From positions 1 through 44,251 of the IMG/VR virus record IMGVR_UViG_3300036835_000463: 44,251 nucleotides of DNA; one strand, 5' to 3'. The notes under the pieces are model-generated. The model ran no database searches. It worked only from the letters and a program-made list of their open reading frames with translations, and was not told the DNA's origin. Shown here piece by piece: positions 2,855-42,118 of the stretch (position 1 is the stretch's first letter; each line of letters begins with the position of its first letter). The position numbers and the translations under genes are program-made. This DNA comes from a virus.

Positions 2855-3529
2855 CTATTCTATTGCGGCAGCAGCATGCTGCTCATGCCGGCCGTCGGGT
2901 TTAAGGCGAAATGCTGCCACGAGGTGAATGCTGTAACTGGAGTCCTGAACTGTCCCCTCTGTCACGCCATGGCGCGGGATCGAGCTGATGAAATGAAGGT
3001 CATCATCATAGATGAGCGGCATATGAAACAGGCCGCCATGGCGCAGGGCCAGGATATCGCCTGGTTTAAAGAAAGCGCGCGGAGTTTCGGCCTCGCGCTC
3101 TTTAATAATCTCCGGAATCGCCAGCTCAGTGAATAGCGAGGCGAGCAGCTTGGATTGCGGATCGTCATCTTTGCCGCGCATCCAATTCAGGATTTTGTCC
3201 CCTGTTTGATGCGACTGATAATCCGCGGATTGCCTTGGGAAATTCCAGCGGGGTGTGGCCTCGATTCGATAGAAGATTTCGGAGAGCAAACCGACACAAT
3301 CGATCCCGCCGCCTGGACCTTTGATGTCTAGACATTTTATGTCTATACCGAGCTTTTCAAGCTCGGCCCGGCCTGCTTCGAGATCGTTTTGGTAGTAAGG
3401 GCGAAAAGGGGTGCCAATCCAGGACATGGCTTCGTTGCGAAGCTTTATGGCCGCGCGTGGATTATCGAAGTAGCTCGCAGGCGCAGGCAACACGCCTGCC
3501 ACTACAAATAAGGAGTTCGCGGCGCTCAT
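2855..3529 (-). CDS. NlpC/P60-like tail peptidase
   Basis: A 224-residue protein with an NlpC/P60 pattern: GGGIDCVGLL puts the probable catalytic Cys at residue 78, and LFHMPLIYDD puts the His at 169 in the usual HxGIY-like position. Such tail-associated peptidases open peptidoglycan during DNA entry. It sits between the DUF2163-like gene and the tip gene, as in many siphophages. Its ATG shares one base with the stop of the gene before it. Residues 9-16 (VVAGVLPA) are encoded by a copy of the dispersed palindromic repeat. Confidence 0.78.
   Translation of the reverse strand: MSAANSLFVVAGVLPAPASYFDNPRAAIKLRNEAMSWIGTPFRPYYQNDLEAGRAELEKLGIDIKCLDIKGPGGGIDCVGLLSEIFYRIEATPRWNFPRQSADYQSHQTGDKILNWMRGKDDDPQSKLLASLFTELAIPEIIKEREAETPRAFFKPGDILALRHGGLFHMPLIYDDDLHFISSIPRHGVTEGTVQDSSYSIHLVAAFRLKPDGRHEQHAAAAIE
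3482..3506 (-). repeat. Palindromic coding repeat, copy 1 (diverged)
   Basis: On the minus strand this reads TGTAGTG followed by GCAGGCGTGTTGCCTGC, a near-perfect palindrome. It is in frame in the NlpC/P60 gene and encodes VVAGVLPA at its N-terminus. Confidence 0.75.
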
Positions 3530-5787
3530 TATTTTTTACCTCCCTGCGGTTGTTTTGCGTTGATTGCTTTCACGAATGGCGAAACCTGCGGGACATAAGG
3601 GTAGCCGCCGAAATTGAGGCGGTTATGGAACTTCGTGTCGCATTGATCGATCGAGCCGTCGTAGCCGGGATAAACGTCGATAGATTGGCCGACCTGGGCT
3701 TTTAAAAGCGGCCGATCGATATGAAGCGTGACCTGGTTCGCGCCGGTCGGTTCGGAATGGAGGATGCCGCGTTTCTCAAGGCCGGCAGTGAAAACGGTCG
3801 GCCCCTGGATCAAGCTGCCGGCGACGGTGATGCCGCCGCCCTTGGGCGTTCCAACGCTGCCCCGCTGCTGCCCGGTATTGATCGTTTCGAGCCAGCCGCC
3901 GGAAAAATAATCCGCTTCTTTGGCGTGAGCCGTGGCGCTGGTAATTACGATGGTCTGGCTATCGAGATTGGCGATCGTGCCTGTGATCTTGAACGCGCTC
4001 GCGGGAATATTCGTCGGCGGGCTGAACTGCGTGTAGTTATCCGACGTTATGATCAGATCCCTGGGGAACTTGCGTTCGAAGAAATTTCCGAATGCCAGAA
4101 TCGTGGCTTTATAATTGGCATCGACGCTCCAGACTTCGCCGGAGAACCTGTTTCTGGCAGATGCGTATTGCGGATTGCGCGCATCGACTTCCAGAACGTC
4201 AAGGGTGAGCGTGCCATCGAGCGCGAACGGCCACAATTTATTGAGCGGATTGCCGTCGAACTTGAAACTTTGCAGGTCCAGCTTTTCCTGGTCGAGCTTG
4301 AGCCCGGTCTTGATGGAATCGAACGAGAATGGCGCGACGACAAATGTGAAGACGGTGCCGTCAACGGTGAGGTTGATGGTGTTTTCGTAGCTGGTAAAAA
4401 GATCGACCCGGACACCGACCTCGTTAAAAATGAAAAGATACGCGGGCTCGGCAAGCTCGGCCGGCGTGTTTGCATATTCGTGCGGTAATTCCTGGAATTT
4501 GATCCGGGTCGACGCGAGATAGGGCGTAGTATAGGTCCATTCCAAGCGCGCTTCGACGAATCTGGCTAGCATAAGATGCGAAAGCCTCGTGTTATCAGCC
4601 GTGTGCGGCCCGATATCGACCGTAGTTGTCAGCAGATCGATCCCGGCCGCAGGAGGAGAATCAGGCGGAACGATGATCGGTAAATCCGGCAATACTTCAG
4701 GCGTCCGTGACATCGATTTGATCTGATAAGGGTCGACCGTATCATCCGGACCAATGAACGCAATGTAAGCGTCGCCCGGTTGTTGTTCCCGGCCGGGATC
4801 CGAAAATTCTGTGCGCTCGACGGCGACCACGCGCGTCGCGCCTGGATAAGGCGTATCACTGAGCATGCGGAAATCGCCGCGATACGTCGGGACCATGAAC
4901 CGACGCACATTCGCCCGGCGATCGCGCCAGAAACGTTCGATGGCGAGAATCGTATCCCGATCGTTCTCGTAAAATTCGAACTCTATGCCGCGCGCGTTCC
5001 GGTGATCATATGCGCGCTGCTGCTCGGTGCGAAGGAACCTGATCTGCTGATAAACGATGTCCGGCATCTCGGTCCAATCGAGCGGCCGGTCGAAATTCGG
5101 GGCGAAAGTCCAGAGCGGCAGGGTGCGAAACGCGGGAATGTGATCGCCGACGAAATGTTGGTTGTCGTGCTCGAACCCGGCCCCAAACGCGCCGAGTCTA
5201 AATGCGAATTCCGAGTTTTCTTTCACGCTGAGCTCGACCTCGAATGTTTCATCTGTGATGAGGTCCGGCTGCGGCCGGTCCGTGAACCGGCCGACCATGA
5301 CCGGATATAAATGGGTGCCGCCGATCCACGTTTTTCTTATACCAGGCGTGCACCTGAGTGAATTGCCCTGGAGAATGCCCGAAACGATTTCCCAATCCGA
5401 AAAATCGTCGGTGCCGATGATCCAGAACGCGCCAGCCCGCGTCGGGACATCGACGAGAGGGACGACGGTCGAGCCGGCCACAGCAGTGAGCGACGTTTCG
5501 CAAACGTCCGGCCACATAGGGACGATCAGTGGTTCGCCGCGGAGGCGCGTAAGGAAGATCCGCAGCTCTGCAGCGTCCGCGGCATTAAACATGTACGCCG
5601 TCCACTTCATTGAATAGCGGCAGCTTTGGGCGAATGCGCGCCGGGATTCGTTAAATGTGATGGGTTCCTTTGCGATGTCGGTGGGGAGATCCATCGCAAC
5701 GGCGATTGGGGTTTCCCAGTTCGGCTTCGCGCACAGGAGACCGTACTGGTTTACCTGGCCGCCAAGCGTCACCATGCGCGCGATCAT
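3529..5787 (-). CDS. Distal tail protein with DUF2163 / phage_BR0599 C-terminal half
   Basis: A 752-residue protein that looks like two tail proteins joined. Residues 1-380 resemble a distal-tail (Dit/DUF2460-type) protein, with many aromatic and Arg residues. Residues 390-752 resemble DUF2163 and end in the phage_BR0599 pattern (KFHNRLNFGGYPYVP). In gene-transfer-agent-like tails these are separate genes just before NlpC/P60, so a fusion is inferred. It lies 16 nt after the tape measure gene and probably forms the ring connecting the tube to the tip. Confidence 0.72.
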   Translation of the reverse strand: MIARMVTLGGQVNQYGLLCAKPNWETPIAVAMDLPTDIAKEPITFNESRRAFAQSCRYSMKWTAYMFNAADAAELRIFLTRLRGEPLIVPMWPDVCETSLTAVAGSTVVPLVDVPTRAGAFWIIGTDDFSDWEIVSGILQGNSLRCTPGIRKTWIGGTHLYPVMVGRFTDRPQPDLITDETFEVELSVKENSEFAFRLGAFGAGFEHDNQHFVGDHIPAFRTLPLWTFAPNFDRPLDWTEMPDIVYQQIRFLRTEQQRAYDHRNARGIEFEFYENDRDTILAIERFWRDRRANVRRFMVPTYRGDFRMLSDTPYPGATRVVAVERTEFSDPGREQQPGDAYIAFIGPDDTVDPYQIKSMSRTPEVLPDLPIIVPPDSPPAAGIDLLTTTVDIGPHTADNTRLSHLMLARFVEARLEWTYTTPYLASTRIKFQELPHEYANTPAELAEPAYLFIFNEVGVRVDLFTSYENTINLTVDGTVFTFVVAPFSFDSIKTGLKLDQEKLDLQSFKFDGNPLNKLWPFALDGTLTLDVLEVDARNPQYASARNRFSGEVWSVDANYKATILAFGNFFERKFPRDLIITSDNYTQFSPPTNIPASAFKITGTIANLDSQTIVITSATAHAKEADYFSGGWLETINTGQQRGSVGTPKGGGITVAGSLIQGPTVFTAGLEKRGILHSEPTGANQVTLHIDRPLLKAQVGQSIDVYPGYDGSIDQCDTKFHNRLNFGGYPYVPQVSPFVKAINAKQPQGGKK

Positions 5788-5803
5788 AGGAGGAACGATC
5801 GGT

Positions 5804-8140: not shown

Positions 8141-8414
8141 AGGTCATTGATTCGAGAATGCGTTGGAGACGGCGCAATTCGGCGTCGGGGTGCTCGGTGT
8201 GTGGTAGCAGTGAGACCCGCAGATCGAGAAGCTTTGCTTCACCGCGCTGGATAGAGGCGCGTCTATGCCATCGCAACAATTGCGGGCCGGACATCTCGAT
8301 TACTTCCCAGGGCTTGAACCCGTATTCGAAGGCGACGATTTCGCAGAGCTCCGCGAGACTGAGTGATCTGGATTCGCTGCTGCCTGGCCGTCGGGCGTGA
8401 ACAGTTTTCCCCAC
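8133..8414 (-). CDS. Tail assembly chaperone, -1 frame extension (T part of G-T)
   Basis: This frame has no good start of its own (the nominal GTG is inside the slippery site) and is the -1 continuation of the upstream chaperone gene. Its sequence (AELCEIVAFEYGFKPWEV) resembles the C-terminal part of lambda-type GT proteins. Slipping at GGGAAAA (8405-8411) would give a G-T product of about 199 residues: 109 from the first frame and 90 from this one. It is needed to assemble the tube around the tape measure. Confidence 0.75.
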   Translation of the reverse strand: MGKTVHARRPGSSESRSLSLAELCEIVAFEYGFKPWEVIEMSGPQLLRWHRRASIQRGEAKLLDLRVSLLPHTEHPDAELRRLQRILESMTYG

Positions 8415-8731
8415 TCTTTTCCTTCCTCCAGCCAGGCGACGGCAAAAGGGCCGTTGAGCTCGCGTCCTTTCCTTGCGATCGCGAGCGCGCTGGCATTATC
8501 CAGCGCGTCGACCCAGTCACCCGGTTTATTACAATAAAGCGCGATCAGTTTCGCTTGTTGCCCTGTCCCGATCGAGAGCACGTATTCCTGGATCTTCGAG
8601 ATCGGGATCTGACGAACCTTGACGGTTTCTTTCGAGCCGTCTTTGCGCTGGATCTCGATCTCTTCGCCGCCTGCGATCGTGACGAGATCGTCGATCGCAG
8701 GCGACACGCCTGCCTCTACAGTGTTTTCCAT
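8300..8731 (-). CDS. Tail assembly chaperone G
   Basis: A 143-residue protein between the tail tube and tape measure genes. The start chosen is ATG at 8729-8731, with GAGAGGCG upstream; the longer open frame to 8854 would overlap the tube gene and is unlikely. Residues 20-108 form a mixed alpha/beta body, and the last 35 residues are Ser-rich and disordered, typical for the non-shifted G product. Residues 4-12 (TVEAGVSPA) come from the palindromic repeat placed right at the N-terminus. Confidence 0.8.
   Translation of the reverse strand: MENTVEAGVSPAIDDLVTIAGGEEIEIQRKDGSKETVKVRQIPISKIQEYVLSIGTGQQAKLIALYCNKPGDWVDALDNASALAIARKGRELNGPFAVAWLEEGKEWGKLFTPDGQAAANPDHSVSRSSAKSSPSNTGSSPGK
8405..8411 (-). 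promoter_or_regulatory. Programmed -1 frameshift site GGGAAAA
   Basis: In the chaperone frame the codons read tgG GGA AAA ctg, a canonical X XXY YYZ heptamer. The -1 frame then continues as GGG AAA ACT into the 8133-8414 frame, giving the G/G-T pair known from long-tailed phages; lambda uses GGGAAAG at the same place. Confidence 0.8.
8696..8720 (-). repeat. Palindromic coding repeat, copy 2
   Basis: The minus strand reads TGTAGAG followed by the perfect core GCAGGCGTGTCGCCTGC. It encodes VEAGVSPA at residues 5-12 of the chaperone. Confidence 0.85.
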
Positions 8732-8745
8732 GTCGCGCCTCTCGG

Positions 8746-9510: not shown

Positions 9511-9537
9511 TGTGTGATCCTTCTATTTTGCCTCTTC

Positions 9538-9822
9538 TTATTTTCTCGCTGTTGCCGAGGCTGTGGCGCTAGCGGTTGGTTTATTTGGAGCAGGCGACAC
9601 GCCTGCCACTACAGCTGGTCCGGCTTCTTCCGGCGGGAAGTGGAAAGTATTGATCTCGCCGGATTCGGAATATCGCGAGATGGATGACGCTTTGCCGTCG
9701 AGCGATTCGCAGCGGGCGGCTGTCGGCGTGATGACTTCGATGATCCTGGCGCGATGGGCTTTCCCGGTGTGACCTACGACCAGGACGTCCTGGCCTATTG
9801 CGAGAAATTTTGGTGGTTTCAT
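9538..9822 (-). CDS. Small protein of the tail cluster, unknown
   Basis: A 94-residue protein. Residues 1-60 look like a small beta barrel (IGQDVLVVGHTGKAHRARIIEVI, an SH3-like pattern). The tail is Ala/Thr/Ser-rich (TASATASATARK) and appears disordered. Residues 70-78 (VVAGVSPAP) are encoded by a palindromic repeat copy. It sits between two beta-rich structural genes, so it is probably a minor virion or assembly protein. Family not recognised. Confidence 0.6.
   Translation of the reverse strand: MKPPKFLAIGQDVLVVGHTGKAHRARIIEVITPTAARCESLDGKASSISRYSESGEINTFHFPPEEAGPAVVAGVSPAPNKPTASATASATARK
9590..9613 (-). repeat. Palindromic coding repeat, copy 3
   Basis: The minus strand reads TGTAGTG followed by the perfect core GCAGGCGTGTCGCCTGC. 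It encodes VVAGVSPA in the C-terminal tail of the 94-residue protein. Confidence 0.85.
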
Positions 9823-9835
9823 TGGAATGGATTTG

Positions 9836-10243
9836 TTAGGCGTTATCGTCGTTAAGGGTGAACGTGTTGGTGACGGTGATCGTGCCGGTGGTGATGTTGA
9901 CGATGTCGAGGGTGATCTCTCCGCCGCCGCCGGTGATGGTGACCACGCCCTGGATGTGGCATGTGGTGCCGGAACTATCTTTCAGCCGGAAAAATTTCGC
10001 GGTGCCGGGCGTGATGGCCGTCCCGTTCCAGGTGCCGAGCTTGGATTTCAAACCGCCGCTCGCGGCAGCGATCCAGTCGGATGGCAAAGTCATCTCGACA
10101 AGCTTTGTTCCAGTATCGGCAGCAGCGCAGTCTGCCGGCGGCGTGTTGGTATCGAAGATTTGCAGCTTCGGCGATGTGCCGATTGTCGATTCGATCGCGT
10201 CGAGACGCGCGTTTCTTACTGCGACTGATAATTGTGCACTCAT
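9836..10243 (-). CDS. Beta-rich minor virion protein
   Basis: A 135-residue protein of a type often seen among phage structural genes: an N-terminal helix (VAVRNARLDAIESTIG), then strands with KFFRLKDSSGTTCHIQG and a Thr-rich end. I recognise the style but not a named family. It lies 13 nt before the 94-residue gene and 4 nt after the 252-residue one, inside the tail/fibre block. Confidence 0.62.
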   Translation of the reverse strand: MSAQLSVAVRNARLDAIESTIGTSPKLQIFDTNTPPADCAAADTGTKLVEMTLPSDWIAAASGGLKSKLGTWNGTAITPGTAKFFRLKDSSGTTCHIQGVVTITGGGGEITLDIVNITTGTITVTNTFTLNDDNA

Positions 10244-10247
10244 TTTG

Positions 10248-13487: not shown

Positions 13488-13493
13488 TTCACA

Positions 13494-13724
13494 TCACTCG
13501 CCCGCGAGCAGATGCAGGAATCGATTTATGGCTTCTACGCCTTTGCGTTTCGATTCGTTATATGCCCAATTGCCGCCGGGGCCCTGTTTCAATTCCTGAT
13601 CGCTATTCGCGATTTGTTTATTTAGGAATGCGATGACAGCCGGATGCTCTTTGAGTTCGTCGAAAGTCGACGGTTCCGAAGTGCCGGCGTCATCGCCGGC
13701 CGCAGTTTTTTTCTTCGCGCTCAT
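13494..13724 (-). CDS. Small head-region protein, Mu gp35-like position
   Basis: A 76-residue acidic/basic helical protein (PSTFDELKEHPAVIAFLNKQ) with no recognised domain. It has an ATGA overlap with the preceding gene and lies 6 nt before the connector gene. Mu and FluMu carry a small gp35-type gene at this spot; the link is by position only. Confidence 0.58.
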   Translation of the reverse strand: MSAKKKTAAGDDAGTSEPSTFDELKEHPAVIAFLNKQIANSDQELKQGPGGNWAYNESKRKGVEAINRFLHLLAGE

Positions 13725-14101
13725 CGATAAGAGACGGTGTAATCAGCGCCGGTGCCGGTTGCGGAGATACAGGTGAGTCCGGTGCCGAACGCGACGTTGT
13801 AATGCAACGTCTGGGTGTTGACATTGACGGTGTCGATCGTGGCGATCTTTGTGCCGCTGGCAGCGGTATTATCGTAGCAAGTGAGCGTGTTCGCGCTGGC
13901 GCCCTTGGTGTTGAACGTGATCAGGTACAACACGCCGGCGCCGGATTTGACATTCGTGGTCGCGGTTCCCGCTGCGACGTTTTTGTAAATGCCTGGCGGA
14001 TTCGCATACGTCGACGGGTTGTAAGTGACGGCTTGCAACGCGCACATCGCCGCAGCCGAAACGGCTGCCACTATAGCGAACAATCTAAATATTTTTTTCA
14101 T
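13721..14101 (-). CDS. Secreted or decoration-type protein with signal peptide
   Basis: A 126-residue protein. Residues 1-25 are a typical signal peptide (MKKIF, then hydrophobic AIVAAVSAAAMCALQA). The rest is a small beta domain (GVLYLITFNTKG, TLTCYDNTAASGTKIATI, THTLHY-like end) similar in style to phage head-decoration or surface proteins. It directly follows the capsid gene, the place for a decoration protein, but export would be unusual for one. The hydrophobic core of the signal is encoded by a variant of the palindromic repeat. Confidence 0.6.
   Translation of the reverse strand: MKKIFRLFAIVAAVSAAAMCALQAVTYNPSTYANPPGIYKNVAAGTATTNVKSGAGVLYLITFNTKGASANTLTCYDNTAASGTKIATIDTVNVNTQTLHYNVAFGTGLTCISATGTGADYTVSYR
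14051..14075 (-). repeat. Palindromic coding repeat, GCC-variant (copy 4)
   Basis: The minus strand reads TATAGTG then GCAGCCGTTTCGGCTGC, a palindrome with the same layout as the GCAGGC family. It encodes IVAAVSAA in the signal peptide, in the same phase as the other copies. Confidence 0.6.
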
Positions 14102-14203: not shown

Positions 14204-16573
14204 CTACTGGCTCGTGAGCACCAAACCGCATCGGCGATCTCCGAGCGCTGCTCCGATCATCACTTCCGGCCGCCATTCGGCGTAGTTGCCGGTGAGATTC
14301 ACATATTGGACGAGCAACACGCTGAAGCCGCCGGGAGCGGAGACCGTGGTCACGCTGCCGGGCACCATCGCGCCGACGGCCTGCGTGAAATCCTGCGGGA
14401 GCCGGCTTTTCACAGCTGCGAACGCTCTGCTGAATGCAATTCCCACACGATTGCTGCTGGATGGGAACCAGGGCGCGCTGATCGGGTTGAACCCTTGCAG
14501 CCTCGGCAACTGGCGATCGGTGATGATCTCCGGGTTGCGCATCGCGGCGAAGAACGTGTTGAACGAAGGATCCGCGGCGAGCCGCGAGAAATACGCGGCG
14601 TTCAACAGAACGGCGCGGTCCTCATCGGGAACCATCGCCGAATCGAACGCAGCGCCGATCTTGCCCAGTGACGCCATGTTAAAATCGGCAAGCGCTTCCG
14701 CGTAGGTCGCGTAAGTGGTCGGAATCGGGAGGACCGTTCCGCCGTCATCGAATCCAGGACCGAGCGTAAAGGTGAGACCGCTGTTCGTGGCGGTCGCCTT
14801 CTGGGTCATCTTGAAATTGGTCGAGTCGGTGATCGAGGCGATATACGTGTTCGCCGGGATGCCGGTACCGCTGATCGCCTGGCCGGGATACATGTTTGCT
14901 GTGGACGAAGCAGAGGCTGCTTCGCTGCCGGTCGTCGTGGCGCCCGTGCCGACGCTGGTCGCGGCATAAGCATTGTAATTTCCGGACGTGAACAATGCGG
15001 CGAGCTTCTTCACGAAATAACCGCCAAGCGCGTAAAGCGCCTGGGGCGCCTGCTCGTCGAACAACCGGCGAATCGTTTTCGCCAGCGTGGTAACGCCGAA
15101 CACGATCGGCACGCCGACATACTCATCCAGCGTGATTGGGATATCGACGCTTTGCGCTGGGCTCACCGTAGTCCAACCCTTGGGCCGGCCTGCGGAATCG
15201 AGCGTTGCATCGTATGTCTGGACCGCTGGCTTCACGATGATTCGCGTAACCTCGGTCTGCTGATACAGCGCTGGTTCGTCGCTGAAATCGGTCGTGATCG
15301 CGCCGAGGACCGGATATTTGAACTGGAGCAACGGCAGCGCGCGTTGAAGAACCAACGTGCCTGCGAGCAAGCCGACCTGGACATCTGCGACGTCGGCGGC
15401 TTTGATCGCTTCCTCGATCGGCATCATCGAAAGGACGTCATCCTTCTCGATGTCCTTCGCGAAAATGGCAGCAGCTTCACGGGCAAGAGCGCCTTTCTCT
15501 TTCGACGTCTCTTTCGTCAGTTTGAGCGCGGCATTTTTTGCCAGGATCCCATAAAACGCTTTGATCACGGCGTTGGGCGCTTCCTTCGTCACTTTCGGGT
15601 CGCCGGAATTCGCGGACCGCGTGATGCGGCCTTCGAGAGCTGGGTTGCCCTGCATCGCTTTGATGACGTCGACGAAGCCGGGGTCTTCAGTAGCGCGGGC
15701 GACGAGCGCTTCCTGCGTCTTCGTGTCCTTTGGCAGGATCGCGCCGCGTTCCACGGCAGCTTTCACGACTGTTTCGGCATCGGCTTTATTCCGTGCCTTG
15801 ATCGTTTCCGCCTGTTGAGAATTTTTCGTTTCGAGCTCGGCGGCTTTGAGCTTGAGTTCGCCAGTCTCGAGTTCGGCTTTCGCCTGGGCGAGACGCGCGG
15901 CCGAGACCTGATCGTTCTTATCTTTCGCGACGAGAACAGTCAGTTCTTCGACCTGTTTTTGTAACTCCTGATTTTTCGCGCGGAGGTCCGCGATTTCATT
16001 CTTATCCATATAATTTTCTTTGTCTTTGTTTACTGGCTCTCCGGATCCTCCGGCGTTTTTTGCCCACAAGGGCAAATTGTCGAAAGCGGGATCGTTCACG
16101 AGACCGCCCATGTTTGGTTTGGGCTTTGGCTCTTCACGCGCGGCGATGCGCGCCGGATTCGCGTGCTTATTATCCACGTGAAACACCGGGCTGAACGCGT
16201 AAAAATCTTTTTCGGCAACGCTGCGTTTGCCGGAGCCGCTCCATTCGCCAGCGGCGATTACGCCTTCGCCTTCCCGCCAGAAAAATGAGTTCGGCCAGAA
16301 GGAGGCTTCGCGATCGTCATGGTTCAGATCGAAATAAGGGCGCTTGCCCGAGGCGATGATTGCAAGTCTGCGCTTTTCGGTTTCAACGGCGGCGGCGCGA
16401 TCGACGAGTACCTTGATTGGTTTGCCGATCCCGCCTGCGATCGGCGTGATCTCGTGCAAACCTTGAGGCAGATAAACGATCTCGTTAGACTCGGCTGCAT
16501 TGGGCGCGAGCTTGATGGCTGCGCGACACACCAGCGATTGATCCGATTGCTCTGCCATCTGAGCGCAGAGCAA
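14204..16573 (-). CDS. Fused capsid protease (Mu I-like), scaffold and major capsid protein
   Basis: A 789-residue protein with three parts that are separate genes in Mu. Residues 15-145 match the Mu I-type prohead protease pattern (YFDLNHDDREASFWPN with His 85; EKDFYAFSPVF). Residues 190-265 are a charged coiled coil like a scaffold. Residues about 385-789 resemble a major capsid protein (LPLLQFKYPVLGAITTDFSD; DSAMVPDEDRAVLLNAAYFS). An inserted beta domain at about 540-605 (GTGIPANTYIASITDSTNF) is probably surface exposed. Met 189 (16007-16009) could start a shorter scaffold-capsid form. Self-cleavage would be needed to release capsid subunits; the cleavage site is not visible. Confidence 0.82.
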   Translation of the reverse strand: MLCAQMAEQSDQSLVCRAAIKLAPNAAESNEIVYLPQGLHEITPIAGGIGKPIKVLVDRAAAVETEKRRLAIIASGKRPYFDLNHDDREASFWPNSFFWREGEGVIAAGEWSGSGKRSVAEKDFYAFSPVFHVDNKHANPARIAAREEPKPKPNMGGLVNDPAFDNLPLWAKNAGGSGEPVNKDKENYMDKNEIADLRAKNQELQKQVEELTVLVAKDKNDQVSAARLAQAKAELETGELKLKAAELETKNSQQAETIKARNKADAETVVKAAVERGAILPKDTKTQEALVARATEDPGFVDVIKAMQGNPALEGRITRSANSGDPKVTKEAPNAVIKAFYGILAKNAALKLTKETSKEKGALAREAAAIFAKDIEKDDVLSMMPIEEAIKAADVADVQVGLLAGTLVLQRALPLLQFKYPVLGAITTDFSDEPALYQQTEVTRIIVKPAVQTYDATLDSAGRPKGWTTVSPAQSVDIPITLDEYVGVPIVFGVTTLAKTIRRLFDEQAPQALYALGGYFVKKLAALFTSGNYNAYAATSVGTGATTTGSEAASASSTANMYPGQAISGTGIPANTYIASITDSTNFKMTQKATATNSGLTFTLGPGFDDGGTVLPIPTTYATYAEALADFNMASLGKIGAAFDSAMVPDEDRAVLLNAAYFSRLAADPSFNTFFAAMRNPEIITDRQLPRLQGFNPISAPWFPSSSNRVGIAFSRAFAAVKSRLPQDFTQAVGAMVPGSVTTVSAPGGFSVLLVQYVNLTGNYAEWRPEVMIGAALGDRRCGLVLTSQ

Positions 16574-25549: not shown

Positions 25550-27142
25550 GTGGCTGTCACTCCTACTGCACACGGAAGCGCGGTTCAAACCGCTCTCGCT
25601 TCTACAACGACGACCTTTACGTCGATCGTTAATCTTCCGGACACGACCGGGATCACGATCGTTGGCATCGCATCAGGAAACCAAGACGGAGCCGGTAGAT
25701 TCCCTAGCAGCGTCACTTTAGGCGGCGTTTCGGTTACCAAGCTCAAAGGCCCATCAGACACGGGGACTGATTACAATGGATCTGGATTCGGAAACATCTG
25801 GCTTGGTTACATTTTAAATTCGTCTATCGGATCGACGGGCAACAAAAATCTCGTCGTCACTCTTAATAGCGCGCCTGGCGGCAATGTCGACATGGCCGCC
25901 GGCGTGACTTGTTGCTCGACTCCTGACGGAACAACTCCTCTCGGCACAGCCGTGGCCCACAGTGGTGGCGGCGGAGCGATCAGCGTCGGCGTCACGGATA
26001 GCGCAACCGGTGACCTGGTCGTCGACATTGTCGGCTCGTTTGGGAACATAAATTCATCTGGCCAGACGCAGCAATGGGTTCAAGACAGCGGCGCTGGTAA
26101 TGGATCGCAATCAACGGCTGCTGGCGCCACGGGGACCGTCACGATGTCATATGATATCGGGGACGATGGCGCCATCGCTGCCGTAGCGGTCAAAGCACCA
26201 GCCGGCGGCGGACCGACTACGGTCGAAGCCGACGGATCGTCATCCGGAAGCTCGACCCCTTCAATAGTCGGGAGGTCAATCTTTGCGGGCGTTCTTGCTC
26301 TCGCCTGCGCCGCGACGGTCTCAGGCGTGTCCGGCGCAAGAAAGGGAAGCGCGGCGAGCTCGCCAGGTTCCTCTACAGCGGCAGCCGTGGCGGCTGCAAT
26401 CGCGGATTCGGCCGCCGGCTCTTCAGGCACGGGCGCGGCATCCGCAACCGGGAGCGCGATCTGGGATTCCGCTGCCAGCTCGTCAGGTTCGGGAGCAGCT
26501 GCCGCGGCCGCATCCGCGATCTGCGATTCCAGCGGCAGCTCGTCAGGCGCAGCGGTCGCCGCGGCGATCACAAACGCGATCTGGAATTCGTTAGGCAGCG
26601 CTGCCGGAGCAGCCGCGACATCAGTCAACGGCTCCGCGATCTTGGATTCAGAAGGCGATTCATCGGACGCGGAGGCGATCGCCATGGCCACTGCAAATGC
26701 GATCTGGGATTGCGTCGGATCGAGCGCAGGATCCTCAACTACATCTGCTGCCGGCGAAAACGCAGCTGAAGGCGGCGCGGATGGCGACTCTTCTGGATCT
26801 TCCGAATGCGCGGCTGTCTCAGCTGCGATCGCGGGCGCGGACGCCGCTACGAATGGATCTGCTTCCGCGGTCGCCGCGGCGACCGCAACGGGGAGCGCGG
26901 CCGGAGGTTCTTCCGCGTCTGGTTCTGCAATTGCCGTATTGGCCGCAATTCATCGCGTCGATGCAAACGCAAGCGGCGCAGGGACCGCGTCGGGAATCGG
27001 CGAAGACGCAGCAACTATTTCTCCCGAGATCACGATTCTTGCCGGCCAGGAAACGGGCTCCGATTTAATCGCGACGCTCGCGTCTTCCAACCTCAAAACT
27101 TCAATCACCGAATCGCAGCTGACCGTGGAAAGGAACGATTAA
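25550..27142 (+). CDS. Long fibre with Ala/Ser repeats
   Basis: A 530-residue protein from GTG at 25550. Residues 1-215 form a beta-rich head (TFTSIVNLPDTTGITIVGIA, GNKNLVVTLNSAPGGNVD) like proteins with a C-terminal jelly-roll. Residues 230-500 are low-complexity with units of about 20-22 residues carrying AIWDS/AICDS/AIWNS/AILDS followed by Gly/Ser/Ala, suggesting a rigid rod of trimers. It is preceded by CTCGTTAGG and no ATG. Role in host binding inferred. Confidence 0.6.
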   Translation: MAVTPTAHGSAVQTALASTTTTFTSIVNLPDTTGITIVGIASGNQDGAGRFPSSVTLGGVSVTKLKGPSDTGTDYNGSGFGNIWLGYILNSSIGSTGNKNLVVTLNSAPGGNVDMAAGVTCCSTPDGTTPLGTAVAHSGGGGAISVGVTDSATGDLVVDIVGSFGNINSSGQTQQWVQDSGAGNGSQSTAAGATGTVTMSYDIGDDGAIAAVAVKAPAGGGPTTVEADGSSSGSSTPSIVGRSIFAGVLALACAATVSGVSGARKGSAASSPGSSTAAAVAAAIADSAAGSSGTGAASATGSAIWDSAASSSGSGAAAAAASAICDSSGSSSGAAVAAAITNAIWNSLGSAAGAAATSVNGSAILDSEGDSSDAEAIAMATANAIWDCVGSSAGSSTTSAAGENAAEGGADGDSSGSSECAAVSAAIAGADAATNGSASAVAAATATGSAAGGSSASGSAIAVLAAIHRVDANASGAGTASGIGEDAATISPEITILAGQETGSDLIATLASSNLKTSITESQLTVERND

Positions 27143-31286: not shown

Positions 31287-31296
31287 CGTTCTCTTT

Positions 31297-33241: not shown

Positions 33242-33243
33242 AA

Positions 33244-33633: not shown

Positions 33634-33654
33634 AAACAGTTAAGCTCAAAAACA

Positions 33655-34960: not shown

Positions 34961-34964
34961 CCCA

Positions 34965-37058
34965 ATGCAGCATTTTTCTCTCTCCATACCTTCCTCATCC
35001 TTGCAAGAGCTCTTGCAAGGCCTGCCCGAATCTGCGCGCAACGATTTTGAATATTGGCGCTCGCGCCTGGAGCCGGTGCTTAAAAATCCGAAATCCGAAA
35101 TCCGAAATCCGAAATCAAATGGCGTCTGCGCGCGTTTGCGAATCATTGCGACTCAAACCGGCGCACCGTTCAAGACCGTCCTCGGCAAATATTATGCGGC
35201 GAAACGCGGCGGGATCGTCGCCCTGGTCGACAGGCGTCTCGCCGGGCCCAGCTGGTGGCTCCGGAAAGAACAACGCTCTCTCAGCGATTCCGATAAGGAA
35301 CTCGTCAAACTTTACTGCGAAAAAAATCAGCGCAGCTCGCGCAGCGCGGTCAAGCATCTCCGGCTCCATTTTATTCGCGGCGCGATCAAAACCGAGACGC
35401 CGATCAACCCCGACACCGGCTATCCCTATGGATGGTCCATCGATAATCTGCTCCGTTACGCGCCGACCAAGTACGAGCTAAAAGCCACGCGCATCGGCCG
35501 GAGCGCCGCGGACAGCGAGCGATCGCTCGTTTACACCACGCGCAAAGGATTGTGGGTCGGCAGCCATTACATGTTCGACGACATGTGGCACGATTTCGAG
35601 GTCAACAGTTTTTCGGAACGCCAGGCAGGCCGCCCACTGGAATTGTTCAGTCACGATCTTTTCGCAGCGCGCAAAGTGCGCTGGGGTATCCGGGTCCGGA
35701 CACGCAAAGATGACGATAGCGGATTTCACGGGCTGACCGAGCGCATGACGCGATTCATTCTCGCTGCGACCCTTTATCTCGATGGTTATTCGCCGCGCGG
35801 CACGGTCTGCATCGAAGAGCAGGGAACCGCCCGGCTTACACGCGGAAATATCGAGCGCGATCTGCACGACTTGTCGAACGGCTTAATCACGGTCGATGGC
35901 GGCGGAATGAAAGGCGCGAAGGCGCATGCCGGCCAGTATCCTGGAATTTCGCGCGGCAACTTTCGGTTCAAAGCCAGCCTGGAATCATCGAACAATCTAA
36001 CGCACAACGTTTTTGGCGCATTGCCAGGGCAGACGGGCAAGGATCGCGATCATTGCCCGGAAGAACACGCCGCGTTGATGCGCAACAATGCCGACCTCCT
36101 GGCCGCGCGACAGCATTTACTTCTTTCTGGAGTTAGTCCCGAGCGAGTCGCGTTGCTCGAATATCCGATCCTCGAAATAAACCAGTTTATGCAGCTCGCC
36201 GCCGAGCTCTATCGCGCGATCGACGAAGATCCCGATCACGACCTGGAAGGCTGGATCGAATGCGGCCATGTCGACCAGGAATTGTTGATCAGCGGCAAAT
36301 GGATCTCGCAACAGAAACTTCTCAACGATCCCGCGCAATCTGCTCTAGCGCTAGAACTCATTCGCGCCGGCCAAATCAAAACTCGTCCCCGCAAAATGAC
36401 ACGTGGCGAAGTCTGGCGCTCCGGCGCCGGCGAGCTGGTCCGGATCCCAGGTCACGGCGTTTGCGCCATCCTCGGCGACGATCTAGCCACTGAGCGCAGG
36501 GTCCGCAAAAACATGTTCGAATTCGAGGACGCCGAAGTCGGCCCAGGCGAGCATCGTTACCAGGCGCTCGCGCGCACACCGAACGGCGAAGAAGTGCGGC
36601 TAGCCGACCGGGAAACTTATCAGACGTTCGTTAATCCGTTCGCGCCCGAAATGCTTTTCGTCAGGCGCGCAAACGGTTCTTACCTCGGCGAATGCCGACG
36701 CATTGAAAAGCCTTGCAGGGCGGATGTCGAAGCCGTGCACAGACTCTGCGCCGCGCGTGCGAAAGAAGAAGCCGAGCTGCTCGCCCCCATCCGGGCCAGG
36801 CATTTGCGCGACGCCCGCGAGAAAACTGCACGCCACGCCCGCAACGCCGCCGTGCTTCGCAGCGCGCCCCTAACGATCGAGGAACGCAGCCGCGCAGCGG
36901 CGCTGCGCGACGCGCAGCGCGAAGTCACTGATGATGATGTCACCGCTGCTGTAGAGGCAGGCGTATCGCCTGCGACTCCTGAAATTTCCGCCGAGGAGAT
37001 CAGCAATCTCTTCGCCACCGACCCGCAACCTGAAAACAACGATCCACACCCATGGTAA
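34965..37058 (+). CDS. MuA-like DDE-type transposase
   Basis: A 697-residue transposase. The catalytic core has FDDMWHDFEVN (Asp 205/206), TVCIEEQGTARL (Glu 284/285) and FRFKASLESSNNLTHN (Glu 340), then LPGQTGKDRDHCPEE. The spacing from 284 to 340 equals the 56 residues between D336 and E392 of MuA, so the second catalytic acid appears to be Glu instead of Asp. The C-terminal region (about 440-560) is a beta-barrel-like domain, and the end is a basic helix. A heptanucleotide tract encodes NPKSEIRNPKS at 41-51, and a palindromic repeat encodes VEAGVSPA near 663. It would bind the GGTTTGAGAA end sites. Confidence 0.85.
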   Translation: MQHFSLSIPSSSLQELLQGLPESARNDFEYWRSRLEPVLKNPKSEIRNPKSNGVCARLRIIATQTGAPFKTVLGKYYAAKRGGIVALVDRRLAGPSWWLRKEQRSLSDSDKELVKLYCEKNQRSSRSAVKHLRLHFIRGAIKTETPINPDTGYPYGWSIDNLLRYAPTKYELKATRIGRSAADSERSLVYTTRKGLWVGSHYMFDDMWHDFEVNSFSERQAGRPLELFSHDLFAARKVRWGIRVRTRKDDDSGFHGLTERMTRFILAATLYLDGYSPRGTVCIEEQGTARLTRGNIERDLHDLSNGLITVDGGGMKGAKAHAGQYPGISRGNFRFKASLESSNNLTHNVFGALPGQTGKDRDHCPEEHAALMRNNADLLAARQHLLLSGVSPERVALLEYPILEINQFMQLAAELYRAIDEDPDHDLEGWIECGHVDQELLISGKWISQQKLLNDPAQSALALELIRAGQIKTRPRKMTRGEVWRSGAGELVRIPGHGVCAILGDDLATERRVRKNMFEFEDAEVGPGEHRYQALARTPNGEEVRLADRETYQTFVNPFAPEMLFVRRANGSYLGECRRIEKPCRADVEAVHRLCAARAKEEAELLAPIRARHLRDAREKTARHARNAAVLRSAPLTIEERSRAAALRDAQREVTDDDVTAAVEAGVSPATPEISAEEISNLFATDPQPENNDPHPW
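35084..35116 (+). repeat. Heptanucleotide tract (AAATCCG)n
   Basis: Four copies of AAATCCG plus AAATC inside the N-terminal part of the transposase; 21 nt give a seven-residue repeat (NPKSEIR). Confidence 0.9.
36950..36974 (+). repeat. Palindromic coding repeat, copy 5
   Basis: TGTAGAG followed by GCAGGCGTATCGCCTGC (one change from the core), encoding VEAGVSPA in the C-terminal tail of the transposase. Confidence 0.8.
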
Positions 37059-38149
37059 AAACGATCGAAAGAAATGGTGTAGAGGCGGCTGTCTCAAGCC
37101 GCATTCCATCCACCGACCGCGCGATGCAGGCTGAAGCTTCCAGCGCGCATTCACGCATTAACGTCCCTCTTAATCTGGACAACTGGAAAACCCTTCCGGA
37201 AAATGTCGTCGCCGAGCTTACCTGGTTTCACCAGCATTTGCTCGATAACAATCTTTCCTGGACCGAAGCCGAGCAAGCCATCAGTTACGATCGCTCCACC
37301 GTGTTCCGTGTTCTCAAAGGGACGTACGAAGGCAGCTGGCAAAAAATCGTGGCTGCCATCGCGAGTTATCGCAAGCTCGACGAACAACGCGGTTCGATTC
37401 AGAAAAACGAGTTCGTAGAAAACTCGATCTCGCGTCTCATCTTCGCAGCGCTCGATTACACAATGGCCAATAACTCGCTCGCGATGATCGTGGGCGAATC
37501 GCGCAGTGGCAAAACGATGGGCGCCAAAATGTGGTGCCAGATGAACAACCACGGCCGCGCGGTTTTCATTACCGCTCCGGTAGTGGGCGGAACCAAGGCT
37601 CTCGCCCGCAGGATCGCGAAACGCGTCGGTGTTAATCGCAATCAATCCGTGCCGACGCTGATCGAGGCGATTTATCGCGCGTTTAACAAGAACAGGATCT
37701 TGGTCGTCGACGAAGCGCATCGGCTTTTGCCGAATGACAGTCGGGTCGTTAACCCCAACAACGTCGAGATCCTGCGCGACATTCACGACGAGACCGGCTG
37801 CGCGCTGGCATTGATTTCCACCAGGCGCCTACAGAATGGGCTGGAGCGCGGCGCATATCAGTACGAGCAGCTGACCGGGCGATTGTCCGGCGGAATGCCA
37901 TTCATCATCAAACCGAAGATCAAACGCGGCGACGTCGTTCCCATAGTTAAACAATTCGTTAAAAATCCGAGCACGGGATTGATCGACGACATGGAAAAAA
38001 TCGCGAATGCGCCGGGTCGCCTTGGAGTGATGGTCGAGATGCTCAAAGTCGCCAGCCGCATCGCTAGCAAATCGAAACAAAGCCTCGATGAAAGCCACGT
38101 GCACAAAGCCATCGCTATCCGTGCGCAAATGTCAGGAGGCGGCCAATGA
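37052..38149 (+). CDS. MuB-like AAA+ ATPase (target selection)
   Basis: A 365-residue protein overlapping the transposase stop by 7 nt. The N-terminal HTH-like part (WTEAEQAISYDRSTVFRVLK) precedes an AAA+ domain: Walker A GESRSGKT (148-155), Walker B RILVVDEAH (215-223), sensor LALISTRR. This matches MuB/TniB-type proteins that capture target DNA and activate the transposase. Residues 10-18 (VEAAVSSRI) come from a relative of the palindromic repeat. Confidence 0.87.
   Translation: MVKTIERNGVEAAVSSRIPSTDRAMQAEASSAHSRINVPLNLDNWKTLPENVVAELTWFHQHLLDNNLSWTEAEQAISYDRSTVFRVLKGTYEGSWQKIVAAIASYRKLDEQRGSIQKNEFVENSISRLIFAALDYTMANNSLAMIVGESRSGKTMGAKMWCQMNNHGRAVFITAPVVGGTKALARRIAKRVGVNRNQSVPTLIEAIYRAFNKNRILVVDEAHRLLPNDSRVVNPNNVEILRDIHDETGCALALISTRRLQNGLERGAYQYEQLTGRLSGGMPFIIKPKIKRGDVVPIVKQFVKNPSTGLIDDMEKIANAPGRLGVMVEMLKVASRIASKSKQSLDESHVHKAIAIRAQMSGGGQ
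37078..37103 (+). repeat. Palindromic coding repeat, GGC-variant (copy 6)
   Basis: TGTAGAG then GCGGCTGTCTCAAGCCGC, the same layout with different arms. It encodes VEAAVSSR near the N-terminus of the MuB-like protein, in the same phase as the other copies. Confidence 0.65.
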
Positions 38150-38856: not shown

Positions 38857-39107
38857 ACCGCCGTTCTTTCTTTGGCCTTTTAATGGCAGCAGCCGGAGCC
38901 ACGGCGATCGGAAAGTTACTGCCGAAGCTCGCACCAACTCCAATCATAGGACCTAAATGGCAATTCCTAATCTCCAGGGCCGCTCTCGCGCAGCGGCCGG
39001 TCGTTCCCGCTCCATCCGTTGCTTGTTTTTACAACCTTGAAGAACTGCAAAAAACGCTAGGTGCGCGTCGCGGGAAGAAAATCTTCTTCGACAGATTCCA
39101 AGCATGA
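38853..39107 (+). CDS. Small exported protein with Tat-like N-terminus
   Basis: An 84-residue protein starting MNRRSFFGLLMAAAGATAIG: a twin-Arg motif (NRRSFF) then a weakly hydrophobic stretch, typical of Tat signals. The remainder is short (TPIIGPKWQFLISRAAL...). No mature domain recognised. ATGA overlaps on both sides; the longer frame from 38823 was not used. Confidence 0.58.
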   Translation: MNRRSFFGLLMAAAGATAIGKLLPKLAPTPIIGPKWQFLISRAALAQRPVVPAPSVACFYNLEELQKTLGARRGKKIFFDRFQA

Positions 39108-39274
39108 AACAGACGATCGTCATCTGCTTAACGGCCTTCGCGATCGCCACCGAATACCTGATGGTCGACATGGCGAAATTCAAAGCGCGAGCCGAGATGA
39201 TCGACCAGGCCGCTCGCGCGCTTCGCGATTTCCACCAGCCCCAGGCAGCAACACCCCGCCTCGAACATTTATGA
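39104..39274 (+). CDS. 56-residue protein with N-terminal hydrophobic segment
   Basis: MKQTIVICLTAFAIATEYLM is a signal- or anchor-like start, followed by a helix (KFKARAEMIDQAARALRDFH). ATGA overlaps at both ends. Unknown family. Confidence 0.55.
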   Translation: MKQTIVICLTAFAIATEYLMVDMAKFKARAEMIDQAARALRDFHQPQAATPRLEHL

Positions 39275-39678
39275 AACAGACCCCTAATATATATAATGGT
39301 GGCGCTATAGTGCCCCACCCGCGCATCACCCGTCGCCAGCGCATGTTCGTCCGGCGCGCCCTCCGGCTGGAAACCAACGCGAAAAAACTGTTTGGCAAAA
39401 TGCGCGAAGCAATCAGTCTTGCTTTGCAGAACGGCCTCGAAGTCGGAACCCCGGTCGAGATCGAGATGCCCGGCCCCGACGGTAAGTCGATCAAGAAATT
39501 CGTCCGGATCAAAAACAACTTCACCGGCGACGTCGCCTTCAAGCGGTCTTACCTGTCACGCTTCGAGATCGAAGACGTCCCCAAATATCAATGGCCGGGA
39601 GCGCCGCAAAAGAAATCGAAGCCGGAACCGGCGACGATCAGCGAGGGCGCGATGAACGACGGAGAGACCGAATCATGA
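39271..39678 (+). CDS. Small basic early protein, unknown
   Basis: A 135-residue protein. A helical basic half (HPRITRRQRMFVRRALRLET, KMREAISLALQNGLEVGTPV) precedes a beta stretch (KKFVRIKNNFTGDVAFKRSY). ATG 39271 overlaps the previous stop. May bind nucleic acid; no family recognised. Confidence 0.58.
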   Translation: MKQTPNIYNGGAIVPHPRITRRQRMFVRRALRLETNAKKLFGKMREAISLALQNGLEVGTPVEIEMPGPDGKSIKKFVRIKNNFTGDVAFKRSYLSRFEIEDVPKYQWPGAPQKKSKPEPATISEGAMNDGETES

Positions 39679-39773
39679 GATTTCCTCAAAATAGGGTCGG
39701 GCCCTCTTCCAGTGCATGGATAGTCGCTGCGGCGGCGATAAGAGGGCTGGGGCTGGGCCCGCTAGATTTATGA
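39675..39773 (+). CDS. 32-residue ORF spanning a hairpin-rich gap
   Basis: A tiny frame (MRFPQNRVGPSSSAWIVAAA...) whose start and stop both form ATGA overlaps with neighbours, the only strong argument for it. It covers an imperfect inverted repeat (CGGGCCCTCTT at 39698-39708, AGAGGG...GGGCCCG to 39761). It may instead be an untranslated structured spacer. Confidence 0.35.
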   Translation: MRFPQNRVGPSSSAWIVAAAAIRGLGLGPLDL

Positions 39774-40081
39774 ACAACACCGATACAGAAAAGAAAACGT
39801 TCGATGAATGGGCGCTGGTCGAGCTATTCGGTCACGCGCGAATCGTCGGTCGCGTAACAGAAGCGACGATTGCCGGCGGCGCATTTATTCGTGTCGACGT
39901 GCCTGATAAGGACGGCAAGACAATCTTCACCCGGTTCTTCGGGCCGAGCGCGATTTATTCCATGTCACCGATCACTTACAATATGGCTCTCGCGCTCGCC
40001 GCGAGCCAGAACTCAGCGCCGGTCAAGCAATACGAAATGCCGCGCCAGCTCAACGAGATCGCGGAGGAGGAGCCGGAATGA
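39770..40081 (+). CDS. Small conserved phage protein, unknown role
   Basis: A 103-residue protein of a type I recognise from many phages: FDEWALVELFGHARIVGRVT, then GGAFIRVDVPDKDGKTIFTR and FFGPSAIYSMSPIT. Two beta hairpins and a helix. Function unknown. The start at 39770 overlaps the preceding stop; the longer frame from 39716 was not used. Confidence 0.68.
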   Translation: MNNTDTEKKTFDEWALVELFGHARIVGRVTEATIAGGAFIRVDVPDKDGKTIFTRFFGPSAIYSMSPITYNMALALAASQNSAPVKQYEMPRQLNEIAEEEPE

Positions 40082-40428
40082 ACCATTTAACGCGGTTCAT
40101 TTCGACAGCTAATCCAGGCATAACAATCATGGCCTGCGGTGAAAGAGGTTCTGGCGGCGCGAACCACTTTTACATTATCCGAGCGGGAGACGAATTCGGT
40201 CGGCTCGAATTCCAGCGAGGCGGCATCCTGGAAGCCGGAATTAACGGGATCACGAATGAGTCACTGCTCGCCGTCGTGATCGACCGCCTGGAGGGATTTC
40301 AGTCGGGTAACTTTGCTTGCCGCGAGAACGCGATCGCGCTCACCAGGATCCAGGAAGCGCTAATGTGGCTTAACAAACGAACTGCCGACCGCCTGGCTCG
40401 AGGAGTCGAAGGCAAAGAAGAAAAATGA
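40078..40428 (+). CDS. Small early protein, unknown
   Basis: A 116-residue protein with an alpha/beta pattern (GGANHFYIIRAGDEFGRLEF, QRGGILEAGINGITNESLLA) and a helical end. This type recurs beside the previous gene in phages as I recall, without known function. ATGA overlaps on both sides. Confidence 0.6.
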   Translation: MNHLTRFISTANPGITIMACGERGSGGANHFYIIRAGDEFGRLEFQRGGILEAGINGITNESLLAVVIDRLEGFQSGNFACRENAIALTRIQEALMWLNKRTADRLARGVEGKEEK

Positions 40429-40697
40429 TCCTGATCTGCCCTATCTGTAGCCACGAGAGCGTCGTTATGAACAGTCCAATCGTGAAATGCTCGAACTGCC
40501 TCCGAACATTCCAGCTCGAAGACGAAATGCTCCAAGAGATCGTGCCGATCATGCCCGATGAATTCAACAAGCTCCTCGATCGAACCTGCGTCGCGCTCAC
40601 GATCAACGGCAAAGGCAGATACGTTCTTCGCCGAGCCCTCGAGAATGCGTTCCATCTCGGTAGCTCGAAAATATTTCGTCGGTCGCCCATCGCATGA
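40425..40697 (+). CDS. Zinc-ribbon protein
   Basis: A 90-residue protein with CPIC at 5-8 and CSNC at 22-25, a typical zinc ribbon, followed by a helical part. May bind DNA or RNA. ATGA overlaps at both ends. Confidence 0.62.
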   Translation: MILICPICSHESVVMNSPIVKCSNCLRTFQLEDEMLQEIVPIMPDEFNKLLDRTCVALTINGKGRYVLRRALENAFHLGSSKIFRRSPIA

Positions 40698-40942
40698 ATG
40701 ACCGACGCCGAAGAGATGTCAGCTGGCAGGTATGCGGCGAGGGCCAGTCGCCATCGTTCGATGGCGCGCAGCTGGCTGTACTGATGGATATACGCGAAGA
40801 GCTGAAGTTGCTTCGCTACAATTTATCTTCAATCAACATGCTATTTCATTGCAGGAATTTCACCGCTATTCCCGCCAAGCTAGATTCGATTCGCAAAAAT
40901 ACTGCTCCCAAACAGATGAAGAAAGTTCGTAGGAAATCATGA
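40694..40942 (+). CDS. Small early protein, unknown
   Basis: An 82-residue protein: a beta-like N-terminus (RDVSWQVCGEGQSPSFDGAQ), a helix (LAVLMDIREELKLLRYNLSS) and a basic end. ATGA overlaps at both ends. No family recognised. Confidence 0.55.
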   Translation: MNDRRRRDVSWQVCGEGQSPSFDGAQLAVLMDIREELKLLRYNLSSINMLFHCRNFTAIPAKLDSIRKNTAPKQMKKVRRKS

Positions 40943-41472
40943 ACCTCGCCCGCGCCAAAAAACTCGCAGCCAGGATCGTCGCCGAGCTCGAGCCCTTTTG
41001 CGATCGCATCGAGATCGCCGGCTCTATCCGCCGGGAACGGCCGGAAGTAAACGACATCGACCTGGTCCTGATCCCGAAGCCGGGCGCGAAAGACAAGATT
41101 CTCAATCGCTGCGCGCACAAGCTTCACATTGTGACCGGCGGTCGCCGCCCGGATCTGAGTAATGTCACCTTCGTCAGCGGCAGCGCAGCTCCATTCCAGC
41201 TCGATCTCTTTTTCGCGCACGATGAAATCATCGACCTCGTCTCCACAAAGCCGACCAATTGGGGCGCCGTGCTTCTCTGCCGCACCGGCAGCATGCAGCA
41301 CAACATCCAGCTCTGTAATTACGCCATCACTAGGGGCCTGAAATTCGCGCCCTATCGCGGCGTCATCGATCGCAACAATGAGATCATCGCCAGCGCGACA
41401 GAAGAGGAAATCTACGGGGCGCTCGGCCTGGTCTGGCGGCATCCGCGCGACCGTGAGGTTCTGAACATATGA
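40939..41472 (+). CDS. Minimal PolX-type nucleotidyltransferase
   Basis: A 177-residue protein with the pol-beta palm signature: RIEIAGSIRRERPEVNDIDL (GS at 28-29, Asp 39 and Asp 41) and a third acid in FQLDLFF (Asp 89), then TGSMQHNIQLCNYA and the PolX-like end LGLVWRHPRDRE. The N-terminal helix-hairpin-helix and fingers of full PolX enzymes are missing. It could add nucleotides to gapped DNA, perhaps helping repair of the transposition intermediates, or act on another substrate; this is inferred. Confidence 0.75.
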   Translation: MNLARAKKLAARIVAELEPFCDRIEIAGSIRRERPEVNDIDLVLIPKPGAKDKILNRCAHKLHIVTGGRRPDLSNVTFVSGSAAPFQLDLFFAHDEIIDLVSTKPTNWGAVLLCRTGSMQHNIQLCNYAITRGLKFAPYRGVIDRNNEIIASATEEEIYGALGLVWRHPRDREVLNI

Positions 41473-41585
41473 GGCCCGGCAAAGCAAAGGAAATCTGCGT
41501 CGAGCTCCTCGTGATCACTCTTATATGCTGCGTCGTTTTCTGGCTCCCCATCGCAATCTTGTTTTTGTTGAAAGCGCTTCACTGA
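41469..41585 (+). CDS. 38-residue single-span membrane peptide
   Basis: A charged N-terminus (MRPGKAKEICVE) then one membrane helix (LLVITLICCVVFWLPIAILF). ATGA overlap with the PolX gene and TGATG with the next gene support translation. Confidence 0.55.
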   Translation: MRPGKAKEICVELLVITLICCVVFWLPIAILFLLKALH

Positions 41586-42118
41586 TGCTAGCCGCCACTC
41601 GCCCACAATTGTTTATGCTCTTCGAGCTCTGGAATCAGGCGAAGCCGATTCTTCATTCGTCCCGTGCGTGCCATATGACCCATCTATCTAGGGAAGAAGA
41701 GGATCGTCGCCTCCGCCACGAATTCACCGCGAAGATCCTCGGACGCGAAAAATCCTGGGCTCAGTTGAATCGCCGCACCGACGTCGATCTTCTCAGAGGC
41801 GCGTTGCTCGCAGCTATTCGGCCAGGAGATTTAAACGCCCAGCTGAAAATAATCCGAGCCAGTCACAAGCGGCTGATATGGCGCCTCGAACAGCTGATGA
41901 GTGAACTCGGCAAAGATCGCAATTACGTCCAGGGCATCGTCGAACGCATGAACCGCGAAGGCTCCCTCAGCTCATCAGATCTCGACCTTCTCGAAACCGA
42001 CGATCTGCGTAAAGTCGTCATCGCCCTCCAGAAACACAAACGCCGCCAAACCTCTTCTGTAGCGGCAGGCGTGTCGCCTGCGAGATCCAAGCGCGATTAC
42101 ATCCTTCACCCCGCATGA
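41585..42118 (+). CDS. Helical early protein, Mu gp16-like end
   Basis: A 177-residue helical protein (LSREEEDRRLRHEFTAKILG; RASHKRLIWRLEQLMSELGK). The segment LLETDDLRKVVIALQKHKRR resembles the end of Mu gp16-type proteins, which are of unknown role. Residues 158-166 (VAAGVSPAR) come from the palindromic repeat. The start might instead be ATG 41675. Confidence 0.58.
   Translation: MLAATRPQLFMLFELWNQAKPILHSSRACHMTHLSREEEDRRLRHEFTAKILGREKSWAQLNRRTDVDLLRGALLAAIRPGDLNAQLKIIRASHKRLIWRLEQLMSELGKDRNYVQGIVERMNREGSLSSSDLDLLETDDLRKVVIALQKHKRRQTSSVAAGVSPARSKRDYILHPA
42058..42082 (+). repeat. Palindromic coding repeat, copy 7
   Basis: TGTAGCG followed by the perfect core GCAGGCGTGTCGCCTGC, encoding VAAGVSPA in the C-terminal tail of the helical protein. 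Confidence 0.85.

Follow-up and report, generated by a model that had tools for sequence, protein, structure and literature searches.

Single, in-frame REPs of a Verrucomicrobia GTAG type in the genome of a Mu-like phage

REPs of the GTAG superfamily have been described from bacteria that include Opitutus terrae, and intragenic copies and GTGG variants are known among them (Di Nocera et al. 2013, PMC3733652). In the REPIN/RAYT literature, REPIN pairs are taken to leave single REPs behind as defunct, immobile remnants (Bertels and Rainey 2011, PMC3116915), and TnpA-REP has been found to cleave single-stranded REP substrates at CT sites (PMC8266576). Among the Rickettsia palindromic elements, RPE-4 and RPE-6 of R. 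conorii have been grouped with CGTC repeats, and RPE-1 is longer (PMC3733652). Phages are not mentioned in the text of PMC3733652, and no description of REPs accumulating in a phage genome was found in the literature searched.

Here, we analysed a 44,251-nt IMG/VR virus record (the window, meaning the whole stretch of DNA). The phage setting noted in an earlier, sequence-only reading is real: the window encodes a portal protein (PF06074), a MuB-like ATPase, a terminase, a tape measure protein and a MuA-like transposase, the last named by homology to L327 and L135 and by the adjoining MuB, which together assign it to the Mu-like phages. Its repeats share with the GTAG REPs of the O. terrae families the GTAG tag, a 20–40 bp stem-loop, the occurrence in Verrucomicrobia, a GTGG variant, many intragenic copies and REP-supplied TAG stops (PMC3733652); they differ in that the window copies lie in a phage, are all single and are all within genes, and the likeness is drawn at the level of the superfamily. 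Elements of this kind are known; the setting (a phage) and the form (single and in frame) are unusual. Intragenic REPs and RAYTs are already known; the phage location and the single-unit form are the new part.

Repeat copies in the window and their sites

A pattern search with TGTAGNGGCAGGCGTGTCGCCTGC, allowing at most one mismatch, recovered five strong copies in the window (three exact, two with one mismatch), and two further copies are plausible but degenerate (Table 1). Folded as single-stranded DNA, the 24-nt unit forms a 7-bp stem with a 3-nt loop at −8.6 kcal/mol (z −5.1). The core at up to three mismatches gives 11 matches against 0.35 expected in shuffles (the palindrome being scored on both strands), and a looser full pattern gives seven against 0.10 expected. 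TGTAG is present in all five strong copies, and in every copy the 5'-TGTAG strand of the element is the coding strand. All seven are read in the phase T/GTA-GNG-GCA, yielding a V(E/V/A)AGVSPA-like peptide, so that the single orientation and phase originally described hold within the window. The accompanying statement about stops is also correct: sense +2 contains TAG, and the other five of the six phases are open.

Table 1. REP copies and degenerate REP-like copies in the window
Feature	Position	Strand	Match to element	Phase and peptide	Site
REP copy 1	3483..3506	-	1 mismatch	+1, VVAGVLPA	~residues 9–16 of NlpC-like gene 2855–3529
REP copy 2	8697..8720	-	exact	+1, VEAGVSPA	codons 5–12 of gene 8300–8731
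REP copy 3	9590..9613	-	exact	+1, VVAGVSPA	16–17 residues ahead of end of gene 9538–9822
Degenerate REP-like copy TATAGTGGCAGCCGTTTCGGCTGC	14052..14075	-		VAAVSAA	signal-peptide-like start of gene 13721–14101
REP copy 4	36950..36973	+	1 mismatch	VEAGVSPA	27 residues ahead of end of MuA-like transposase 34965–37058
Degenerate REP-like copy TGTAGAGGCGGCTGTCTCAAGCCGC	37078..37101	+		VEAAVSS	near start of MuB-like gene 37052–38149
REP copy 5	42058..42081	+	exact	VAAGVSPA	11 residues ahead of end of gene 41525–42118

The reading frames at 3483, 8697, 9590, 36950 and 37078 are backed by homologues, and that of the gene at 42058 by a PHROG match that stops at residue 178. Judged by coding score alone, the 42058 gene is ambiguous and the 9590 copy would go to an opposite-strand ORF, an assignment that homology overrules. 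The degenerate variant at 14052, whose hairpin has −8.6 kcal/mol, fits a host subfamily with 66 copies, GCAGCCGTGTCGGCTGC; it could also be a chance product of the Ala-rich signal peptide. The variant at 37078 fits the host sequence GCGGCTGTCTCAGCCGC (two host copies) plus one base; a further host variant is GCGGCTGTGTCAGCCGC. In an Ala-rich gene (25550–27142), the sequence TACAGCGGCAGCCGTGGCGGCTGC at 26374–26397 forms a perfect palindrome of 7 bp that is read in the same register; it may be one more degenerate copy, the eighth, or a chance occurrence.

The comparison of gene homologues with and without the insert, which the sequence-only reading had proposed, shows that related phages lack it at three to four sites. 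At copy 1, the L132 and L133 homologues keep the Shine-Dalgarno sequence and ATG but have no insert: they begin MSEPSYFD, and the window reads MSAANSLFVVAGVLPAPASYFD at this place. For the gene carrying copy 2, homologues in L133, L132 and L356 align only from just past the insert; for that carrying copy 3, five homologues align up to residue 62–69, just ahead of the insert, and their short tails are unrelated. The MuB homologue in L327 is 59% identical and aligns from residue 16, only past the insert, and the PHROG 286 match of the gene carrying copy 5 stops just ahead of it. At copy 4, the MuA homologue in L327 shows no empty site: the corresponding stretch is another sequence of comparable length, AATEGVGTSPSP. 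No base-exact empty site was found in close relatives of the phage among the homologues compared.

Phage L327 also carries a GTAG-tagged stem-loop, GTAGGGACGTCCCCGTCCC, at 9829–9847, in the same phase and at the homologous MuA C-terminal position. In IMG/VR it matched one contig, L327 itself, and none was found in 145 genomes of the phylum. With a single copy across all searches, it was dropped as a second REP family, and its position in MuA may be coincidence. Elsewhere in L327, positions 14948–15146 are taken up by a 12-base unit (GCTGCCAGGGAC-like) repeated in tandem.

The observation that the copies lie near protein termini stands: none of the seven is farther than 30 codons from a gene end. 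For a random coding site the chance of this is ~0.30 per copy, giving 0.0024 for five copies and 0.0002 for seven. Placement of this kind, where mRNA structure matters, and the nearly identical sequence in five genes are what might be expected if the elements were useful to the phage, the hairpin regulating translation or mRNA stability or the peptide serving as a linker or tag. We consider such usefulness very improbable, given that the same sites are empty of the elements in related phages, that the genes and the strand which carry them differ in other phages, that the proteins with host copies are unrelated, and that the gene-end bias already follows from tolerance alone. The elements would instead be tolerated passengers, with no evident function in the phage.

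Element identity, host lineage and RAYT association

The exact element occurs in 120 stretches of the genome collection, and among the matches listed every title names Verrucomicrobia, Spartobacteria, Chthoniobacterales or Ca. Udaeobacter. A search of the core in the likely host lineage, as first suggested, found it abundant: ten Verrucomicrobia genomes, standing for that lineage rather than for an identified host of this phage, hold 5–51 copies per genome at up to two mismatches, about equally on both strands. Host genomes also contain the arm variants GCAGCC/GGCTGC and GCGGGC/GCCCGC. The element is a GTAG-superfamily REP of Verrucomicrobia (Spartobacteria, "Ca. Udaeobacter"), as its size and stem-loop, the GTAG at the stem end, its high copy number and a REP-flanked RAYT in the hosts indicate. 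Members of the superfamily are mainly extragenic, and the window copies are all intragenic; this does not bar membership, because intragenic REPs are an accepted exception (PMC3733652).

A RAYT-type transposase, which the sequence-only reading had proposed to look for, is present in this lineage, with homologues in 80 of the 83 genomes of the family. One of the closest (L264:6761–7213) scores 92 bits against NF047646 (NCBIfam cut-off 80) and sits amid the same REPs, one 61 bp upstream and others 5 and 36 bp downstream; a second, in L297, likewise lies between REPs. The base before TGTAG is C in 74–84% of host copies, matching cleavage by TnpA-REP at CT (PMC8266576). A relative of the phage MuA (38% identity) is encoded in one genome of the RAYT-bearing Verrucomicrobia family, consistent with a Spartobacteria/Udaeobacter-like host, and a MuA search of viral contigs gave no relative.

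The resemblance to Rickettsia palindromic elements that had been remarked on holds for behaviour, in that palindromes are inserted in frame at tolerant places in unrelated proteins. It does not extend to membership: the tag (GTAG) and the lineage are different and a RAYT accompanies the repeats in the hosts here, and 24-nt GTAG-tagged REPs with only Verrucomicrobia among the matches listed place the repeats outside that group.

Among host loci, blastn for base-exact empty sites returned only seven diverged alignments with unclear boundaries, and the insertion test in hosts rests instead on orthologue sets of a kynurenine-monooxygenase-like (KMO-like) gene and of PurL. A loop of the KMO-like protein is encoded by 81 nt in L372, which has a single REP, and by 57 nt in REP-free species. 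Because the difference is exactly 24 nt, the insertion unit appears to be 24 nt, or eight codons. Across species, the same enzyme loop carries different REP subfamilies and is empty in others (KMO-like, L359–L388; PurL, L389–L418); KMO-like copies read VEAGVSPA or VEAAVSAA, and PurL copies mostly AGDTPAxT. These orthologue sets suggest that insertion has recurred at corresponding sites, or that one REP has replaced another there.

We consider it highly probable that single GTAG REPs of the host were put into this Mu-like phage, likely by a RAYT, and that purifying selection for register and position followed. The genome of a Spartobacteria/Udaeobacter-like host would be the source of the ~24-nt single REPs, and the host RAYT (TnpA-REP) is the most likely agent, inserting the REP into single-stranded DNA beside a C (C/TGTAG). 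Several points count against this explanation: the phage contig, when searched, yielded no RAYT gene, the close relatives compared gave no base-exact empty site, the literature holds single REPs to be immobile (PMC3116915), and the all-sense, all-+1 pattern of the window slightly exceeds the host rate.

Reading phase and the encoded peptide

Host phases were counted in sampled regions totalling ~2.9 Mb. With a coding model trained on long ORFs, 76 of 368 distinct host elements are intragenic, most host copies being extragenic, and these 76 were grouped into 25 protein clusters to correct the raw phase counts for orthologues. Counted by cluster, the host phases are +1, 20; −0, 13; −1, 8; +0, 1; and −2, 0; those in other phages are +1, 10; −0, 9; −2, 2; +0, 1; and −1, 1. 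Use of a single phase therefore fails as a general rule, since other phages and host genes use several. What remains of the orientation and phase count is a non-random distribution with a register bias and no strict single phase or strand. Measured against the host +1 rate (about half), five of five strong window copies in +1 sense has P ~0.02–0.04, a post hoc value, and the all-sense, all-+1 window is only mildly unusual.

Phase and orientation might be set by the insertion mechanism itself, through a codon-position target preference or transcription-linked copying, with no selection on the peptide. A strong target preference does exist, in the C that precedes TGTAG, and every window copy is sense to its gene. 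Applied to host codon positions, however, the C preference predicts +0 22%, +1 19%, −0 24%, −1 20% and −2 16%, and so fails to predict the +1 excess; among host protein clusters, sense +1 outnumbers +0 by 20:1, where target choice would give a ratio of 0.47 (p 2.7e-6). The distribution among the three codon registers likewise departs from the target-choice prediction, at p 1.6e-6, a value that is optimistic because elements paired in the same gene do not count as independent. Nor does transcription-linked copying have to be invoked, since other phages carry antisense and sense copies about equally often, and we regard an origin of the bias in the insertion mechanism as quite improbable.

Phases +1 and −0 are one palindrome register read from two strands, Ala-Gly...Pro-Ala (VxAGVSPA in sense, AGDTPAxT in antisense), and the shunned register is Cys/Arg-rich (CxGRRVAC or RRHACxY). 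The variable base carries a bias of its own, which depends on the reading frame and thus also speaks against the insertion mechanism as its source: of 21 exact +1 copies within genes, 15 have A there and so encode Glu, as against 17 of 87 intergenic copies with A (p 1e-5; duplicates among the 21 were removed by flank and not by protein cluster). The suggestion that phase is selected at the peptide level is supported by the register and Glu biases, with target choice insufficient, and such selection explains the phase bias most simply. This makes the element a quantitative case of selection on a peptide incidentally encoded by a mobile DNA hairpin, one free base included.

Under insertion followed by selection, the insertion step itself would probably be blind to reading phase. 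Surviving phages would be those in which the insert, at 24 nt exactly eight codons long, leaves the frame intact, does not fall in the TAG phase, is read in the benign Ala-Gly...Pro-Ala register and not in the Cys/Arg register, and sits where the protein tolerates extra residues, here at the ends. Against this explanation, the copy at L010 5198, which lies at the C-terminal end of a gene, is read in +0, a disfavoured phase. The related phage L010 has REPs both within and next to its tail and NlpC-like genes (sites 2435–2511, 4957 and 5198), including one +1 copy with a partner, and at 2435 a REP supplies the TAG stop of the preceding gene.

Single units and inverted pairs

The host copies resemble the REPIN/RAYT system (PMC3116915, PMC8266576) in being mostly inverted pairs, in the REP-flanked RAYT and in the C/CT boundary; they differ from the window copies and most other phage copies, which are single REPs. 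In the hosts, an inverted partner lies no more than 75 bp away, to either side, for 104 of 127 exact copies (82%); the other 23 lack one. Every strong window copy departs from the REPIN arrangement of an inverted pair with a short spacer, no partner above background being found within 75 bp of any of the five. Single copies thus make up 5/5 of the strong window copies and 14 of 22 copies in other viral contigs; for the window versus host singles, Fisher p is 4e-4 (on a closely similar host count of 24/127). Many apparently single intragenic host copies have a degenerate partner, and the comparison of singles with pairs leaves out a first count of such copies.

The solitary copies might descend from REPIN pairs of which one half was deleted or decayed, an account of the single form only. 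Pairs are the common host form and single REPs are seen as remnants by Bertels and Rainey (PMC3116915), yet we think this origin rather unlikely: old decayed pairs are not expected in window copies that are near perfect (0–1 changes) and partnerless, loss would have had to be clean and frame-preserving at all five sites, and a single REP explains exactly the +24 nt of the host KMO-like gene. Near-perfect solitary copies look, from their sequence, recently inserted.

Direct insertion of singles would need an additional, hypothetical mechanism. Movement of single REPs is conceivable, because TnpA-REP cleaves single-stranded REP at CT (PMC8266576), and we raise tentatively, as something possible though doubtful, that single REPs are mobile themselves, host RAYTs repeatedly inserting solitary 24-nt REPs into infecting or resident phages. 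Should the window copies be fresh single insertions, they would challenge the view that single REPs are dead remnants and would offer a compact, fast-turnover system in which to watch RAYT activity. Were single REPs mobile, phages would be both record and vehicle of REP spread, in contradiction to movement by pairs only.

In two other viral contigs (L007 319/354 and L011 2507/2542), paired copies point their GTAG ends inward, an arrangement that is rare in hosts.
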